A stretch of 12,908 nt of DNA from Prevotella sp. (GTDB taxonomy: Bacteria; Bacteroidota; Bacteroidia; Bacteroidales; Bacteroidaceae), in NCBI GenBank assembly GCA_021204735.1, contig JAJPYV010000211.1:11197-24104 (forward strand). The letters are read 5' to 3'. This document shows positions 67-6,365 of the stretch, piece by piece; the stretch's first letter is position 1; the number at the start of each line of letters is the position of its first letter. Position numbers and translations under genes: made by a program. The notes below the pieces were generated by a model. The model did not search any database. It saw nothing but the letters and a program-made list of their open reading frames with translations, and had not been told where the DNA came from.

Positions 67-1020
67 TCAGAAAAATTTCGTTTCCTCACCAGTTATCTCG
101 CTCAGCAACATGTTGGCAAGTCGGCTTGTACCTAAGCGTAACCACTTGTTTGTCAACCATTTCTCACCTAAAACTTCTTTTACTATAGTATAGTAAATCA
201 GAGCATCCATAACGGAATTCAATCCACCAGCAGGTTTGAAACCGATTTGAATACCCGTCTTATCATAGTATTCTTTTATAGCTTGACACATCACGTAGGC
301 TGCCTCAGGTGTTGCAGCAGGTTCTAATTTACCGGTAGAGGTCTTGATGTAATCTGCTCCTGCATACATTGCTATGATAGATGCTTTCTTGATGTTTGAT
401 GCAGTTTTTAGACAACCTGTCTCCAATATTACCTTCATAGGTACCTGTCCGCAAACTTGTTTCAATTCACTGATATCATCTGCCACACTCTCGTAGTCAC
501 CACTAAGAAACTTACCAACAGGCATCACTATGTCTATTTCCGTTGCTCCGTCTCTAATGGCAAGTGCTGTCTCTGCTATCTTTACCTCCATCAGTGCTTG
601 TGATGATGGAAAACTGCCTGATACACAAGCTATTTCCACGCCGTCTATTTCGAGAGTATCACTTACTATTTTTGCAAAGCAAGGATAGACACATATTGTT
701 GCAACATGTGGCAGATGTGGATAATTTGCCTCGAATTTGTTCACGTTTTCTGTGAACGATAATACACTTTCCTCTGAATCTGTGGTCTTTAACGTAGTCA
801 GTTCAATACTTCCGAACAGAAATTTCTTTACTTCTAACGTATCGTTTTCATGAACTTTTTCTGTAATTATTTTCTTCACTGCCTCTTTGATATTCTCATC
901 TTTTAAGTCAGTGTCGTAAAGTGAGAGAGCTTCCTCATATTTGTTTATTCTCTTTCTAACATGCTCATGCTCATGTCCACAGCCACATTCATTGTGGTGC
1001 TCATTACTGTTTGTAGTCAT
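67..1020 (-). CDS. deoC: Deoxyribose-phosphate aldolase (DeoC) with His/Cys-rich N-terminal tail
   Basis: Class I aldolase that cleaves 2-deoxy-D-ribose 5-phosphate to glyceraldehyde 3-phosphate and acetaldehyde in cytosolic deoxynucleoside catabolism. The protein has 317 residues and a TIM-barrel fold is expected. The family signatures are visible: EIDIVMPVG with Asp163, YIKTSTGK with the Schiff-base Lys226, GFKPAGG with the proton-relay Lys262, and a phosphate-binding LGTSR near 297-300. The first ~20 residues (NEHHNECGCGHEHEH) form a His/Cys cluster absent from the E. coli enzyme (about 259 residues), and residues 21-60 are a further N-terminal extension, which is longer in Bacteroidetes-type DeoC. 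The ATG at 1020 is the first in frame and keeps this tail. The gene is last in the leftward cluster, 36 bp after the MazG-like gene, with no promoter of its own visible. The function is secure; a metal-binding role for the tail is speculation. Confidence 0.95.
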   Translation of the reverse strand: MTTNSNEHHNECGCGHEHEHVRKRINKYEEALSLYDTDLKDENIKEAVKKIITEKVHENDTLEVKKFLFGSIELTTLKTTDSEESVLSFTENVNKFEANYPHLPHVATICVYPCFAKIVSDTLEIDGVEIACVSGSFPSSQALMEVKIAETALAIRDGATEIDIVMPVGKFLSGDYESVADDISELKQVCGQVPMKVILETGCLKTASNIKKASIIAMYAGADYIKTSTGKLEPAATPEAAYVMCQAIKEYYDKTGIQIGFKPAGGLNSVMDALIYYTIVKEVLGEKWLTNKWLRLGTSRLANMLLSEITGEETKFF

Positions 1021-1056
1021 ATTTTTTATGTTTAAAATTTTCTTTATATTTATAAC

Positions 1057-1395
1057 TCATTTGGTAAGTTTTTTATTGTTCTTATGTCTTTCTTTATCTC
1101 TTTGAGTCTTTTTCTCTATGTTTTTCAATATAGCTTCTGTCATGTCAACGCCTGTTTGGTTTGCAAGACAGAATAATACCCAAAGCACGTCTGCCATTTC
1201 ATCAGATGGATCTTGCGTTTCACCCTCCTTGAAACTTTGGTCACCATATTTACGTGCCATTATTCTTGCCAATTCCCCAACTTCTTCAGTTAGACATGCC
1301 ATATTGGTGAGTTCGCTGAAATATCTCACGCCATATTTCTTAATCCACTGGTCTACAAGTTGTTGAGCTTCTCTTATTGTTAAATCATTTGTCAT
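1057..1395 (-). CDS. MazG-like nucleotide pyrophosphohydrolase
   Basis: Small all-alpha NTP pyrophosphohydrolase of the MazG/dUTPase superfamily, 112 residues, with a single MazG domain. These enzymes hydrolyse (often non-canonical) nucleoside triphosphates to the monophosphate and pyrophosphate and clean the nucleotide pool. The metal-binding pattern is visible: ExxE at Glu38-Glu41 in TEEVGE, and ExxD at Glu66-Asp69 in DEMADVLW. The C-terminus is a Lys/Arg-rich tail (KKTQRDKERHKNNKK). Single-domain length matches the MazG-like/RS21-C6 group rather than full two-domain MazG of about 260 residues. It sits 34 bp after dtd and 36 bp before deoC on the same strand, so co-transcription is likely. 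The preferred nucleotide cannot be read from sequence. Confidence 0.9.
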   Translation of the reverse strand: MTNDLTIREAQQLVDQWIKKYGVRYFSELTNMACLTEEVGELARIMARKYGDQSFKEGETQDPSDEMADVLWVLFCLANQTGVDMTEAILKNIEKKTQRDKERHKNNKKLTK

Positions 1396-1429
1396 TATTT
1401 GAAATATCCAAGTTGTTACCTTTATATGA

Positions 1430-1882
1430 TTACTCTTTATTTTTCGTATCCATGCAAATTGTTACAGGACCGTCGTTAAGTAATTCCACTTTCATATTTG
1501 CTCCAAATTCGCCTGTTCCCACTTGTTTGTCAAGTGCTTTGCTGATCTTGCTGCAGAATTCATTGTATAGAGGAATAGATACCTCATGTTTGGCAGCATG
1601 AATCCACGAAGGACGATTACCTTTTTTGTAGGATGCTAATAAAGTGAATTGACTAATCACTAATATCTCGCCTCCAACATCAGTAATTGGTAGATTCATC
1701 ACACCGTTTTCGTCATCGAATATTCTTAGTGCAATAATTTTTTTCACAAGCCAATCACCATCTTCTGTGGTGTCGTTGTCGGCAACTCCGAGAAGAATTA
1801 AATAACCTTTACCAATAGTCGACTTTATTTTGCCTTCTATTTCTACTGATGCTTTACTAACTCGTTGGATTACAGCCTTCAT
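1430..1882 (-). CDS. dtd: D-aminoacyl-tRNA deacylase
   Basis: Chirality-proofreading enzyme that hydrolyses D-aminoacyl-tRNA (D-Tyr and others, also Gly mis-charged on tRNA-Ala), recycling the tRNA in the cytosol. The product from the ATG at 1882 is 150 residues, the family length of about 145-150, and begins MKAVIQRVSKASVEI, the canonical DTD start. Two active-site motifs are present: SQFTLLA near residue 78 and the C-terminal Gly-Pro motif in NDGPVT near 136-141, which forms the cross-subunit cis-Gly-Pro chiral selector. KKGNRPSW matches the conserved loop after the first motif. A TTG at 1903 in the same frame would add seven residues and overlap the uvrC stop. I chose the ATG because it matches the family and has an A-rich AAAAAAGAT just upstream. 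The gap to uvrC is 17 bp, so translational coupling or co-transcription is likely. Confidence 0.95.
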   Translation of the reverse strand: MKAVIQRVSKASVEIEGKIKSTIGKGYLILLGVADNDTTEDGDWLVKKIIALRIFDDENGVMNLPITDVGGEILVISQFTLLASYKKGNRPSWIHAAKHEVSIPLYNEFCSKISKALDKQVGTGEFGANMKVELLNDGPVTICMDTKNKE

Positions 1883-1899: not shown

Positions 1900-3732
1900 T
1901 CAATTGTTCTCTTGATGAAAATATTCGAATACTATCTTGCCCTTACTAACACCCAAAACTTCAATCAGTTTTTGCTTATCTGATTCTTTTATTTGCTTTA
2001 CTGTTTTGAACTTATTTAAGAGAAGCGACTTACTTTTCGGTCCTATACCCTTAATATCATCCAATTCAGAATGTAATGCATGCTTACTTCTCTTGTCTCT
2101 GTGGAATGTAATGGCAAAGCGGTGTACTTCATCTTGCATGTGTGTAAGTAAACGAAATAATTCACTTTCTGTTTTCATCCCAATCACCACTGGCGGAACA
2201 CCATAAAGTAGTTCATTGGTTCTATGCCTATCGTTTTTCGCCAAACCAGCAATTGGAATATTCAGGTGAAGTTCATTTTCCACAACTTCTCTAACCACGC
2301 TCATCTGTCCTTTACCACCGTCCGTAATAATTAGGTCGGGTAGGGGTTGACCTTCATCTTGCATTCGGCTATATCTGCGGCGAACTACTTCTTGCATTGA
2401 TGCATAATCATCAGGTCCTGTAACAGTTTTGATGGTATATTTACGATAATCCTTTTTGCTTGGCTTCATTTTTTTGAATACCACACATGCTGCTACAGCA
2501 TCACTTCCGGAAATGTTAGAGTTGTCGAACATCTCTATTTGGTAGGGTATCTTTGGCAGTTTCAGTGCATTCTGAATTTCCTTCATCAATCGTACGCTTT
2601 TTTGTTCGGGATTCAACTTTTCTGCTTGTTTCAGTCTGTCAAAGCGATACTGTTTCCCGTTCATTTCCGAAAGGTCAAGCAATTTTTTCTTGTCTCCTCT
2701 TTGCGGCACAGTGAATGTTATACCCTCGAGAGACATGTTGAGTGCCTTTGGGATAATGATTTCACTTGATCTACTTCCAACTTTTTCTCGAATTTGAAGA
2801 ATGCCAAGTTGTAGTATTTCTTCGTCTTGCTCGTTCAACTTTTTCTTAAATTCAAACGTGTAGGCTTGATTTATGCTGCCATTTGTAACATGCATATAGT
2901 TTATGTATGCTGTATTCTCATCATTAGCTATTGAGAATACATCTACATTGTCGATAGTATGACTGACAACCTCACTCTTTGCACAGAAGTTTTCCAATAA
3001 TACATACCTTCTTTTTAATTCCTCTGCTTCTTCAAACCGAAGCTGCTCAGCTAAATGCTGCATCTGTGAAAATAGCATTTTAGACAGTTCGCGGGTTTTT
3101 CCTTTCAATATCTCTTGTGCTTGAGTTATACATTCCTGATATTCTTCGTGGCTCTGTTTTGCTATGCATGGAGCATCACAGTTGTGAATATGATATTCTA
3201 AGCAAGGTTTATATTTTCCTTGCTCTATACCTTCCTTTGTAATTGGAAATCTGCACGTTCTCGGCTTGTACAACTTTTTAATCAGTTCGAGGACCGCATA
3301 CATTGAGCCCAAATGACTATATGGTCCATAGTATGTTCCCCACTTTCTGTTTATATTTCTCGTTTTGAATATACGCGGGAAATACTCTTTAGTTACGCAG
3401 ATTGATGGGTAGGTTTTCCCATCTTTCAGTAGTATGTTGTATCTCGGTTTGTATTTCTTAATAAGATTGTTTTCAAGCAAAAGGGCATCTTCTTCTGTAT
3501 TTACTACAGTATAGGAGATGTCCATTATCTTGCTTACTAAGACTTTCGTCTTAAATCTGTCAACCTCTTTATGGAAGTAAGAAGAAACACGATTTTTTAG
3601 ATTTTTTGCTTTGCCTACGTATATAACAGTATTATTGTTATCATAGTATTGATAGCAGCCTGGCTTTGATGGTAAGTTGCTCACAATACCTCTAAGGTGC
3701 TCAAGTCGTTTCTCGTTTTCTTCTTTCGTCAT
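1900..3732 (-). CDS. uvrC: Excinuclease ABC subunit C (UvrC)
   Basis: Dual-incision nuclease of UvrABC nucleotide excision repair; it joins the UvrB-DNA complex and cuts on both sides of the lesion. Its 610 residues match the usual length, and domains are in the standard order. An N-terminal GIY-YIG nuclease (about 16-100) has YVGKAKNLKNRVSSYF with Arg48, and the metal-binding Glu87. A Cys cluster (Cys160, 177, 185, 189) corresponds to the Fe-S ligands reported for E. coli UvrC, with a slightly longer first gap. The UVR motif that contacts UvrB is at about 226-250. The RNase H-like 3-prime-to-lesion... i.e. second nuclease has Asp403 in MFDNSNISG, Asp471 in ITDGGKGQ and His537 in EVHRFAI. Tandem helix-hairpin-helix motifs follow at about 556-605 (IKGIGPKSKSLLL, LIEVLGVSKGKI). 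The start ATG at 3732 is 61 bp after apt; a parS site lies in that gap. No damaged residue was seen. Confidence 0.97.
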   Translation of the reverse strand: MTKEENEKRLEHLRGIVSNLPSKPGCYQYYDNNNTVIYVGKAKNLKNRVSSYFHKEVDRFKTKVLVSKIMDISYTVVNTEEDALLLENNLIKKYKPRYNILLKDGKTYPSICVTKEYFPRIFKTRNINRKWGTYYGPYSHLGSMYAVLELIKKLYKPRTCRFPITKEGIEQGKYKPCLEYHIHNCDAPCIAKQSHEEYQECITQAQEILKGKTRELSKMLFSQMQHLAEQLRFEEAEELKRRYVLLENFCAKSEVVSHTIDNVDVFSIANDENTAYINYMHVTNGSINQAYTFEFKKKLNEQDEEILQLGILQIREKVGSRSSEIIIPKALNMSLEGITFTVPQRGDKKKLLDLSEMNGKQYRFDRLKQAEKLNPEQKSVRLMKEIQNALKLPKIPYQIEMFDNSNISGSDAVAACVVFKKMKPSKKDYRKYTIKTVTGPDDYASMQEVVRRRYSRMQDEGQPLPDLIITDGGKGQMSVVREVVENELHLNIPIAGLAKNDRHRTNELLYGVPPVVIGMKTESELFRLLTHMQDEVHRFAITFHRDKRSKHALHSELDDIKGIGPKSKSLLLNKFKTVKQIKESDKQKLIEVLGVSKGKIVFEYFHQENN

Positions 3733-3771
3733 TTACTTAATCTTCTGTTTTACAGTAAATTCCCTTAAACT

Positions 3772-3787
3772 TGTTTCACGTGAAACA
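3772..3787. other. parS centromere site 1 (between apt and uvrC)
   Basis: TGTTTCACGTGAAACA is a perfect match to the bacterial consensus parS, the ParB (Spo0J) loading site used in chromosome segregation. It is an exact palindrome that extends to 18 bp (3771-3788) with the flanking T and A. It lies in the 61-bp gap downstream of the apt stop, 6 bp from it. An 18-bp palindrome could also form a short hairpin, but there is no loop or T-run as in a terminator, and an identical 16-mer occurs 700 bp away. Binding by ParB is established for this consensus; occupancy here is inferred. Confidence 0.93.
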
Positions 3788-3793
3788 AATATA

Positions 3794-4324
3794 TTACAAG
3801 CACATCAAAGTACTAATTTCGGTGTCCTTGTCAAATTTGTCTCTGCCGTTCAATTGCTCACTTACAAGTTCTATCAAGAAATTCACGTATATCTTTTTTG
3901 GATGAAACTTACTTACTAAGTTATATGCTGCCCTCATTGTACCACCCGTAGCGAGTAAGTCATCATGCAGCAGTACAACATCGTCTTCGGTAATTGAGTC
4001 GCTATGTATTTCGATCGTGTCTGTTCCATACTCCTTACTATAACTTTCCTGGACGGTTTCAGCAGGAAGTTTGCCAGGTTTACGGCACAATACCACACCG
4101 GCATGCAGTTTGATTGCTAAGGCAGACGACATAACAAAACCACGGCTTTCTATACCGACAATTTTAGTTATGCCCTTATCCTTGTACATTTCGTACAATT
4201 CATCTTCCATAATTTTCAGACACTCAGGATTTTTAAACAGTGTCGTTACATCCCTGAAAAGAACACCCTTCTGTGGATAGTCGGGAATGCTTCTCAAATT
4301 TTCTAATAATGTTTTGTTGTTCAT
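3794..4324 (-). CDS. apt: Adenine phosphoribosyltransferase
   Basis: Converts adenine and PRPP to AMP and pyrophosphate in cytosolic purine salvage. The 176-residue protein has the type I phosphoribosyltransferase fold. Visible signatures are the N-terminal hood IPDYPQKGVLFRDVTTLF (13-30), the adenine-specific GIESRGF (57-63), the flexible loop around RKPGKLPAET (81-90), and the PRPP-binding motif VVLLHDDLLATGGTM (115-129) with the acidic pair followed by ATGGT. The ATG at 4324 gives the standard start, with an A-rich upstream stretch and no clear Shine-Dalgarno. The gene is flanked on both sides by parS sites, in the 169-bp gap from mnmG and the 61-bp gap to uvrC. A weak promoter candidate lies upstream at 4402-4433. 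Function is secure. Confidence 0.97.
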   Translation of the reverse strand: MNNKTLLENLRSIPDYPQKGVLFRDVTTLFKNPECLKIMEDELYEMYKDKGITKIVGIESRGFVMSSALAIKLHAGVVLCRKPGKLPAETVQESYSKEYGTDTIEIHSDSITEDDVVLLHDDLLATGGTMRAAYNLVSKFHPKKIYVNFLIELVSEQLNGRDKFDKDTEISTLMCL

Positions 4325-4401
4325 TTGTTTTTATTTTTAATGTTTTTATCTCATCTTGTTAATAGTTTGACTGCAATCTTATTCAATATCTATTGCTTAT
4401 T

Positions 4402-4433
4402 CTAAGGTATTATGTATTTTATTTATTTTCAAC
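4402..4433 (-). promoter_or_regulatory. Weak candidate promoter for apt
   Basis: On the minus strand GTTG (4433-4430) is followed after 20 bp by TACCTTAG (4409-4402). Each differs by one base from the Bacteroidetes TTTG and TAnnTTTG boxes, and the spacing is right. It lies about 80 bp upstream of the apt ATG in a 169-bp AT-rich gap. Two mismatches in AT-rich DNA make this tentative; apt could instead be read through from mnmG. Confidence 0.3.
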
Positions 4434-4471
4434 TATTTTCATCGAAAACCCATTGCGAAAAACATGCTGAT

Positions 4472-4487
4472 TGTTTCACGTGAAACA
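4472..4487. other. parS centromere site 2 (between mnmG and apt)
   Basis: A second TGTTTCACGTGAAACA, identical over all 16 bp to the site at 3772-3787 and starting exactly 700 bp from it. It lies in the 169-bp mnmG-apt gap, 6 bp beyond the mnmG stop codon. Two perfect copies of a 16-bp palindrome within 1 kb are far beyond chance and support a genuine ParB-loading cluster. Confidence 0.95.
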
Positions 4488-4493
4488 TACGGT

Positions 4494-6365
4494 TTATCGT
4501 TTCATAAGAACTAACATGATATTTATATCGCTGGGTGATACACCAGGAATCCTGCTTGCTTGTGCAAGTGTTTCCGGGTCGATTTTTATCAGTTTTTGAC
4601 GGGCTTCTGTTGATAATTGCTTCATCTCTGAATATTTGAAATGTCCCCTTATTTTGATGTTTTCTAAGCGGTGCATTTTATCCGCTATGATTTTCTCACG
4701 CTCAATATATCCCTTGTACTTCATACTGATTTCAGCCGCTTCAGCAATCTCTTCCTTCCTGTTAGTAGGTGAGTTGAGAATTTCTTTTAGTGCTGGAATA
4801 TTTTCGGCGATGTTATCAAGAGTAATCTGTGGACGGGCAATCAAGTCGGAGATTTTGCATCCCTCACGCAAAGGAGTAGTGCCCAATGCCTCAAGTGCAG
4901 AATTAATTTCCTTTGGTTTTACTGAGGTAGTATTGCAGAAATTTATAATCCTTTCTACCGCCTCTTTTTTCTCCATCCACCAATCATAACGCACACGTGT
5001 AGCGAGCCCTAAGTTATATGCTTTTTCTGTCAGACGGGCATCGGCATCATCCTGTCGCAACAGTATTCTATATTCAGCCCTACTGGTAAACATGCGGTAT
5101 GGTTCGTCAACACCTTTTGTTACCAAGTCATCGATAAGAACACCGATATAAGAATCGTCCCTATGCATTATGAATGGTTCACTGCCACCACATCTCAAAG
5201 CTGCATTGATACCAGCCACAGTGCCTTGACCACCGGCTTCCTCGTACCCGGTTGTTCCGTTCATTTGTCCAGCAAAAAACAATCCCTTAATAATTTTTGA
5301 TTCCAACGAATGATCAAGTTGGGTAGGGTCGAAGAAGTCATACTCTATCGCATATCCTGGACGGTATATTTTCACGTCACGCAGAGCGGGAATTTTTCTT
5401 ATTGCAGCCAATTGTATGTCCATAGGCATACTTGATGAGAAACCATTTAGATACATCTCGTTTGTTGTCTCGCCTTCAGGTTCCAAAAATAGAGGATGTT
5501 GTTCCTTTTGTGGGAATGTTACCAATTTTGTTTCAATAGAAGGACAGTAGCGAGGACCTATACTTTGTATCTGTCCGTTATACAATGGCGAGTCGGCTAT
5601 ACCGCTCATCAGTGTCTTGTGAACTTCGGGATTTGTATAGCACGTCCAGCAAGGCAGTTGTTTGAGCACCCTATGTTTGCCCATAAAACTGAACTGGTGA
5701 AAGTCGGTTTCGCCCTCTTGTATTTCCATGTCCTCAAAATGCACAGTCCGTTTATCTATTCTCACAGGCGTGCCTGTTTTCATCCTCGCTGAATTTATCC
5801 CATGCCGAGTGATACTTTCTGTAAGGTGCATCACTGCAGGTTCTGCCATGCGACCGCCAGGCAACTTGCAGCGGCCCACATGAAGCAGACCGTTGAGAAA
5901 TGTGCCCGCAGTGATGACAACACACTTAGCTCTCAGTTCAACGCCCCACACAGTGCGCACCCCGACAGTCTCGTTGCCCTCAACCAACAGTTCTTGAGCC
6001 TGGTCTTGCCAAATATCAAGGTTCGGGGTGCTGTCTAATACAGTTCGCCATTGCCAGATGAATTTCTCACGGTCGCACTGTGCACGTGGGCTCCAAACGG
6101 CAGGTCCTTTTGATCGGTTGAGCATTCTGAATTGTATAGCCGTCGCATCCGTTACCAATGCCATCTGACCTCCGAGAGCATCTATCTCTCTTACGATTTG
6201 ACCTTTTGCTATACCCCCGACTGCCGGGTTACAACTCATCTGTGCTATCTTGTTCATGTCAATGGTAACAAGACATGTGCGTGCGCCCATGTTTGCCGAA
6301 GCGGTGGCAGCCTCACAACCGGCATGCCCACCTCCGATAACAATGACATCGTATTTGAGAAGCAT
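4494..6365 (-). CDS. mnmG: tRNA uridine-5-carboxymethylaminomethyl(34) synthesis enzyme MnmG (GidA)
   Basis: FAD-dependent partner of the GTPase MnmE; together they install (carboxymethyl)aminomethyl groups at C5 of the wobble uridine U34 in tRNAs reading split codon boxes. The product from the ATG at 6365 is 623 residues, a normal MnmG length. It opens with YDVIVIGGGHAGCEAA, the Rossmann FAD site (GGGHAG at 11-16). Also visible are SCNPAVGGIAKG with Cys45 and YCPSIETK with Cys274, matching the two functional cysteines of E. coli MnmG (Cys47, Cys277), then FFAGQMNGTTGYEEAGGQG and FTSRAEYRILLRQDDAD. The C-terminal helical domain ends in RIPGVSPSDINIMLVLMKR, the tail region that contacts MnmE. 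A TTG at 6401 would add 12 residues, but lies inside the -7 promoter box, so the ATG is preferred. mnmE is not in the window. Confidence 0.97.
   Translation of the reverse strand: MLLKYDVIVIGGGHAGCEAATASANMGARTCLVTIDMNKIAQMSCNPAVGGIAKGQIVREIDALGGQMALVTDATAIQFRMLNRSKGPAVWSPRAQCDREKFIWQWRTVLDSTPNLDIWQDQAQELLVEGNETVGVRTVWGVELRAKCVVITAGTFLNGLLHVGRCKLPGGRMAEPAVMHLTESITRHGINSARMKTGTPVRIDKRTVHFEDMEIQEGETDFHQFSFMGKHRVLKQLPCWTCYTNPEVHKTLMSGIADSPLYNGQIQSIGPRYCPSIETKLVTFPQKEQHPLFLEPEGETTNEMYLNGFSSSMPMDIQLAAIRKIPALRDVKIYRPGYAIEYDFFDPTQLDHSLESKIIKGLFFAGQMNGTTGYEEAGGQGTVAGINAALRCGGSEPFIMHRDDSYIGVLIDDLVTKGVDEPYRMFTSRAEYRILLRQDDADARLTEKAYNLGLATRVRYDWWMEKKEAVERIINFCNTTSVKPKEINSALEALGTTPLREGCKISDLIARPQITLDNIAENIPALKEILNSPTNRKEEIAEAAEISMKYKGYIEREKIIADKMHRLENIKIRGHFKYSEMKQLSTEARQKLIKIDPETLAQASRIPGVSPSDINIMLVLMKR

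Follow-up and report, generated by a model that had tools for sequence, protein, structure and literature searches.

What are two identical 16-bp palindromes doing on either side of apt, the gene for adenine phosphoribosyltransferase, and next to mnmG (gidA) in a Prevotella chromosome? They lie in a stretch of 12,908 nucleotides (the window) from a metagenome-assembled genome (MAG) of Prevotella sp., GenBank assembly GCA_021204735.1, contig JAJPYV010000211.1, positions 11,197 to 24,104. An earlier note on this DNA had taken them for parS, the sites at which the partition protein ParB loads, and had judged the window to be probably near the replication origin, with apt inside a centromere region. 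Comparison with related genomes indicates that the 16-mers are very probably functional chromosomal parS sites that make up the centromere of a region close to the origin in a Prevotella-type chromosome. The element is of a known kind, and its anchoring beside mnmG is the interesting part.

The two sites and their partner proteins

Both copies of TGTTTCACGTGAAACA match without a mismatch and stand 700 bp apart, one on each side of apt (Table 1), and the window holds no further match at up to three mismatches. Shuffled versions of the window gave a mean of 0.12 matches at that threshold, with at least two matches in one of 200 shuffles. The MAG comprises 2,743,735 bases in 438 contigs and is 81% complete and 3.7% contaminated. 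A search of the whole assembly, as the earlier note had proposed, returned only the two perfect copies inside the window, where base composition alone predicts 0.001. Three more places with two mismatches lie on other contigs, and a control pattern (the 16-mer reversed, up to two mismatches) gave two matches per strand. Both sites conform to the 16-bp parS consensus, which is also the one used in the portion of PMC10197239 consulted, and the observation of two perfect parS sites flanking apt beside mnmG is confirmed.

A parB homologue, whose absence the earlier note had named as evidence against its reading, is present in the same assembly as a single match. The open reading frame (ORF; L005) encodes 297 amino acids and scores 190.4 bits against TIGR00180, for which the cut-off is 58.45. 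Against the Noc model TIGR04285 it reaches 242.5 bits, more than for the general ParB domain, though below that model's cut-off of 315. It has a helix-turn-helix and a GERRWRA motif, which we take to be the CTPase motif. When aligned to 6t1f it carries R and G at the positions of Caulobacter ParB residues 173 and 201. According to the excerpted text of PMC7383237, R173 and G201 are conserved among ParB proteins, and Noc has Q and R there. Nucleoid occlusion by Noc at a Noc-binding site (NBS) is not supported, given these two residues and the parS-type site. Directly adjoining parB is a ParA-like ORF of 263 amino acids with a KGGVGKT motif. It scores 107.1 bits against the NCBIfam model ParA_partition, below the cut-off of 180, and none of the NCBIfam models listed for it exceeds its own cut-off.

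mnmG as the conserved neighbour of parS

A genome scan with apt retained the best 80 of 175 loci, mostly from genomes titled Prevotella, Prevotellaceae, or genera such as Hoylesella, Leyella, Segatella and Xylanibacter. The closest apt among these 80 is 94% identical and comes from a MAG titled Prevotella. The genes mnmG, apt and uvrC stand together in 74 of the 80 loci, and 73 of those 74 carry both sites with no more than three mismatches each. The remaining locus (L060) has site 2 only, so that the site 2 position is occupied in 74 of 74 syntenic loci and the site 1 position in 73 of 74. Three of the six non-syntenic loci (L007, L029 and L039) end near the cluster, with one, two and two sites visible. 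Over the 146 sites of the 73 loci, 9 of the 16 positions are invariant; positions 1, 5, 12 and 16 vary, as rarely do 2, 8 and 9, and the surrounding intergenic sequence is variable.

The two sites keep different company. Site 2 lies a median of 38.5 bp from the uvrC start (interquartile range 35 to 40, extremes -8 and 175, n = 74; starts inferred as the nearest start codon), and its distance to apt ranges from 5 to 2108 bp over the same loci. Site 1 lies a median of 20 bp past the mnmG stop codon (73 loci) and is exactly 34 bp upstream of the apt start in 27 of 73. By these spacings, site 2 is tied to uvrC, and site 1 to mnmG or apt. A partly conserved CTTTAAANAAAG-like stretch precedes the uvrC start codon in a set of 50 loci (window 3732-3787, minus strand).

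Beyond the Prevotella group it is mnmG that stays with the sites. A sample of 60 genomes from the order, including the window's own, contained the core GTTTCACGTGRAAC in 32. Thirty order-level loci were cut with 1.5-kb flanks, and the 29 left after excluding the window's own include 26 with mnmG in the flank. In all 26, no more than 100 bp separates the nearest site from the mnmG match, and the site may stand at one end of the gene or the other. In other families, too, parS adjoins mnmG, and apt or uvrC is often missing from the flank. At the level of the phylum the palindromic core occurs in 86 of 118 genomes (own included). Twenty stretches of 1,014 bases from 18 genomes outside the window's order, hand-picked from the matches listed and not random, show mnmG within 500 bp of a site in 15 of the 18 genomes. 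Two of these genomes (G435 and G385) have a site at each end of mnmG, so that the pair flanks mnmG and not apt.

The claim that apt sits inside a centromere region therefore needs revision, as apt is incidental and mnmG is the conserved neighbour. As an anchor, apt was also rejected on three loci of the scan (L030, L055 and L063) where it is separated from mnmG and uvrC and the stretch contains no parS at up to two mismatches. With a relaxed pattern, the genome of L030 yielded a single site, which lies beside uvrC (L264), the genome of L055 yielded two weak ones, of which one (L268) is about 1 kb away from deoC, and the genome of L063 yielded no site. Since these genomes are few, the case against apt comes mainly from the order-level flank survey. 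All three are titled Bacteroidaceae bacterium, and their apt genes are 79-81% identical to that of the window. The anchor is mnmG, and in its Prevotella-type form the arrangement gains a further site, about 39 bp ahead of uvrC. Among the matches listed, no publication was found by title or abstract opening that describes the pairing of parS with mnmG in this phylum, a search that did not cover the main parS survey (Livny 2007).

Copies scattered evenly round the chromosome, which the earlier note had held to count against its reading, were not seen. A search of 12 relatives with NGTTYCACGTGRAACN gave 21 sites, with two in ten genomes, one in one and none in one; the reversed control occurred once, in one of the 12. 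Comparison of coordinates with the apt scan places all 21 at the mnmG-apt-uvrC locus, and in the genome without a core site (H. timonensis) this locus carries sites whose centre is of the CATG type. A further sample of 22 single-contig genomes of the family comprised 13 of the window's genus and 9 of other genera. Among the 13, ten carry a pair of core sites separated by 0.58-1.13 kb, two carry a single site and one lacks the core; among the nine, seven have one site, one has two sites 32 bp apart and one has none. The relaxed pattern, whose reversed control gives 0-2 matches per genome, adds pairs at mnmG-apt-uvrC in G233, G238 and G017, and in G015 returns one site with a CACGTG centre plus three scattered weak matches.

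The CATG-type centre replaces CACGTG in several relatives (L032, L037, L044 and L054; G238, G372 and G373), mostly at both members of the pair. L085 and G233 are exceptions, where a single member of the pair retains or acquires a different centre. A non-CG centre is present in 4 loci at site 1 and in 5 at site 2; 4 of the 73 have it at both, and two of these four belong to one species. The one ParB read from a genome with changed centres (L088, H. timonensis) shows no difference attributable to specificity. Concerted change of the two centres is a lead.

The genes of the locus are collected in Table 1, and the identities that the earlier note had given to those beside the sites hold, with apt, mnmG, uvrC, dtd and deoC all above NCBIfam cut-offs. 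The 112-aa gene downstream has no NCBIfam match and is presumably MazG-like. In the direction of transcription the order is mnmG, site 1, apt, site 2, uvrC, dtd, the MazG-like gene and deoC.

Table 1. Features of the parS locus, in window coordinates.
Feature	Coordinates	Strand	Remarks
parS site 1	4472..4487	no strand	between mnmG and apt, 6 bp past the mnmG stop codon
parS site 2	3772..3787	no strand	in the apt-uvrC intergenic region, with the uvrC start codon 39 bp downstream
mnmG (gidA)	4494..6365	-	TIGR00136 above cut-off; adjoined by parS in sampled genomes across the phylum
apt, adenine phosphoribosyltransferase	3794..4324	-	NCBIfam NF002636/TIGR01090 above cut-off; between both sites
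uvrC	1900..3732	-	TIGR00194 above cut-off; start codon at near-constant distance from site 2
deoC, 112-aa MazG-like gene (presumed), dtd	67..1882	-	downstream, syntenic; deoC and dtd above NCBIfam cut-offs

Position of the replication origin

Because the window's assembly is fragmented and dnaA was not recovered from it, the origin was examined in relatives. GC skew, raw and corrected for gene direction, was sampled in four single-contig genomes (G082, G227, G174 and G191). DnaA boxes were sought as 9-mers with at most one mismatch over 426-440 kb around each minimum and over 400 kb of spread samples per genome. The skew of G082 turns positive at about 1.50-1.52 Mb, where eight DnaA-box-like 9-mers (two exact) lie at 1,509,614-1,509,934, and its parS at 1,542,496 is 33 kb from this minimum and box cluster. 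G227 has its minimum at about 2.66 Mb with eight boxes (two exact) at 2,657,998-2,658,293, and parS follows 38 kb away at 2,695,794. G174, from another genus of the family, reaches its minimum at about 0.857 Mb; four boxes, none exact, lie at 858,769-859,301, and parS is 145 kb away at 1,004,565. The only other cluster of at least four boxes per 600 bp in the stretches examined is in G082 at 1,342,388 (four boxes, none exact). Coarse sampling of G191 shows a broad skew minimum, and parS at 80 kb falls inside it.

The box cluster at the skew minimum adjoins nadA, the quinolinate synthase gene (NCBIfam match above cut-off), in both G082 (L223:4507-5934) and G174 (L177:13606-15301), which belong to different genera. 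This nadA-side cluster is a candidate oriC locus. The cluster of G227 is flanked by an NlpC/P60-like gene (below cut-offs) and a sigma-70-like gene.

The gene dnaA itself was rejected as an origin marker. In 11 single-contig genomes of the family, the distance from parS to the best dnaA match among the matches listed (G082 is not among them, and some contig sizes are rounded) is 0.39 Mb in G017, 0.63 in G227, 0.81 in G076, about 0.8 in G113, 0.84 in G191, 0.85 in G110, 0.92 in G056, 1.00 in G174, 1.57 in G152, 1.63 in G118 and about 1.8 in G106; adjacency of site and mnmG was read in three of them (G017, G227 and G174). On single scaffolds, parS is 0.94 Mb from dnaA and 0.74 Mb from parB in Hoylesella marshii, and 0.75 and 0.91 Mb from them in Segatella buccae. 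The span is thus 0.39-1.8 Mb for dnaA over 13 genomes and 0.7-0.9 Mb for parB in two. The suggestion that the window is probably origin-proximal is supported, with a correction: parS lies near the GC-skew minimum and a DnaA-box cluster in three single-contig relatives, which supports an origin-proximal locus, but one from which dnaA and parB are distant. This agrees with PMC10197239, whose excerpted text describes 12 gut strains, including B. caecimuris and Muribaculum intestinale, in which the skew origin is marked by parS clusters but not in every case by dnaA, the skew shift nearer parS having been taken as ori.

Function, rival explanations and significance

How the sites would work is suggested by the ParABS literature, and what was observed here are the sites, the parA and parB genes, the conservation and the origin proximity in relatives. 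ParB dimers would load on both sites, close into CTP clamps and slide across mnmG-apt-uvrC, and ParA would pull the ParB-bound regions apart, segregating the sister origins. The excerpted review PMC7333895 covers the loading of ParB at parS, its CTP-dependent sliding and the movement of sister origins by ParA. This group has two sites, one past mnmG and one just before uvrC, and parS keeps its place beside mnmG in the skew-defined origin region although dnaA and parAB sit elsewhere. The other task of ParB at parS, the loading of SMC, is doubtful because ScpA (PF02616) was found in 0 of 20 genomes (the window's own, 11 of its genus and 8 of the order's other families), in a search limited to ScpA and not extended to SMC or ScpB. 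The same search was positive in 9 of 14 control genomes.

It is possible to read the near-constant distance of site 2 from uvrC, kept despite a highly variable distance to apt, and the recurrent 34-bp spacing of site 1 from apt, as the marks of operators through which ParB or another palindrome-binding regulator controls apt and uvrC. In the window, TATATTTG abuts site 2 and resembles the TAnnTTTG box, a promoter motif of Bacteroidota. Of the 50 loci tested (of 74), only 3 have the box between -60 and +56 of site 2 and none has it abutting the site as in the window, and the idea of a promoter overlapping site 2 was dropped. Other families, moreover, keep parS at mnmG, often where neither apt nor uvrC is in the flank, and the sites are of the ParB consensus and the sole such sites in the 12 genomes searched. 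That the sites are mainly operators is distinctly unlikely. Still less credible, to the point of being hardly worth entertaining, is a chance or relict palindrome that ParB does not bind. The lack of the exact core in some relatives would fit such a relict, but the near-zero number of copies predicted, the invariant positions amid variable intergenic sequence and the presence of parA and parB all speak against it.

A centromere near the origin thus remains much the preferred interpretation, with several observations weighing against it. The exact core is missing from 28 of the 60 order-level and 32 of the 118 phylum-level genomes, and mnmG is not in the flank of 3 of 29 order-level loci (L237, L251 and L256) or of 3 of 18 phylum-level genomes (G380, G459 and G451). 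The origin was placed in relatives, the window's own genome being in 438 contigs without dnaA. The skew is noisy overall, with a second negative stretch at 0.12-0.175 Mb in G227 and negative or near-zero patches on the other arm of G082 (2.6-2.8 and 3.29 Mb), and G191 was mapped coarsely. Finally, the four one-mismatch boxes of G174 form a cluster no stronger than the lone 1.342 Mb cluster of G082, which lies off the skew switch.

In other bacteria, gidAB-parAB origin clusters place mnmG/gidA beside the partition locus, whereas here mnmG is paired with parS, and parAB has a different location. The locus resembles the chromosomal ParABS systems of PMC7333895, as excerpted, in having parS near the origin and both ParA and ParB present. 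It differs from them in the distance of dnaA and parB from parS, in having one or two sites, and in the lack of ScpA. Closer are the parS clusters of B. caecimuris and M. intestinale, the two Bacteroidetes in which PMC10197239 reports no known condensin; its excerpted text does not mention mnmG, apt or uvrC with those clusters.

A broader proposal, speculative and on balance rather unlikely, is that the Bacteroidota (as GTDB defines them) inherited mnmG-parS as an ancestral centromere module, which stayed intact while parAB and dnaA were scattered and classical condensin was lost in this order. It might have been kept because ParB sliding over mnmG-apt-uvrC couples segregation to the expression of genes for tRNA modification, purine salvage and repair. 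It would also mark an oriC (beside nadA in some genomes) that dnaA annotation misses.

With ScpA lacking, it may be asked what ParB loads at these sites, if it loads anything. The findings suggest that the centromere has stayed with a single gene over evolutionary distances as wide as the phylum, with the ParA and ParB genes elsewhere, and parS beside mnmG could serve as a sequence-only marker of the origin region in genomes and MAGs of the phylum, where dnaA misleads.
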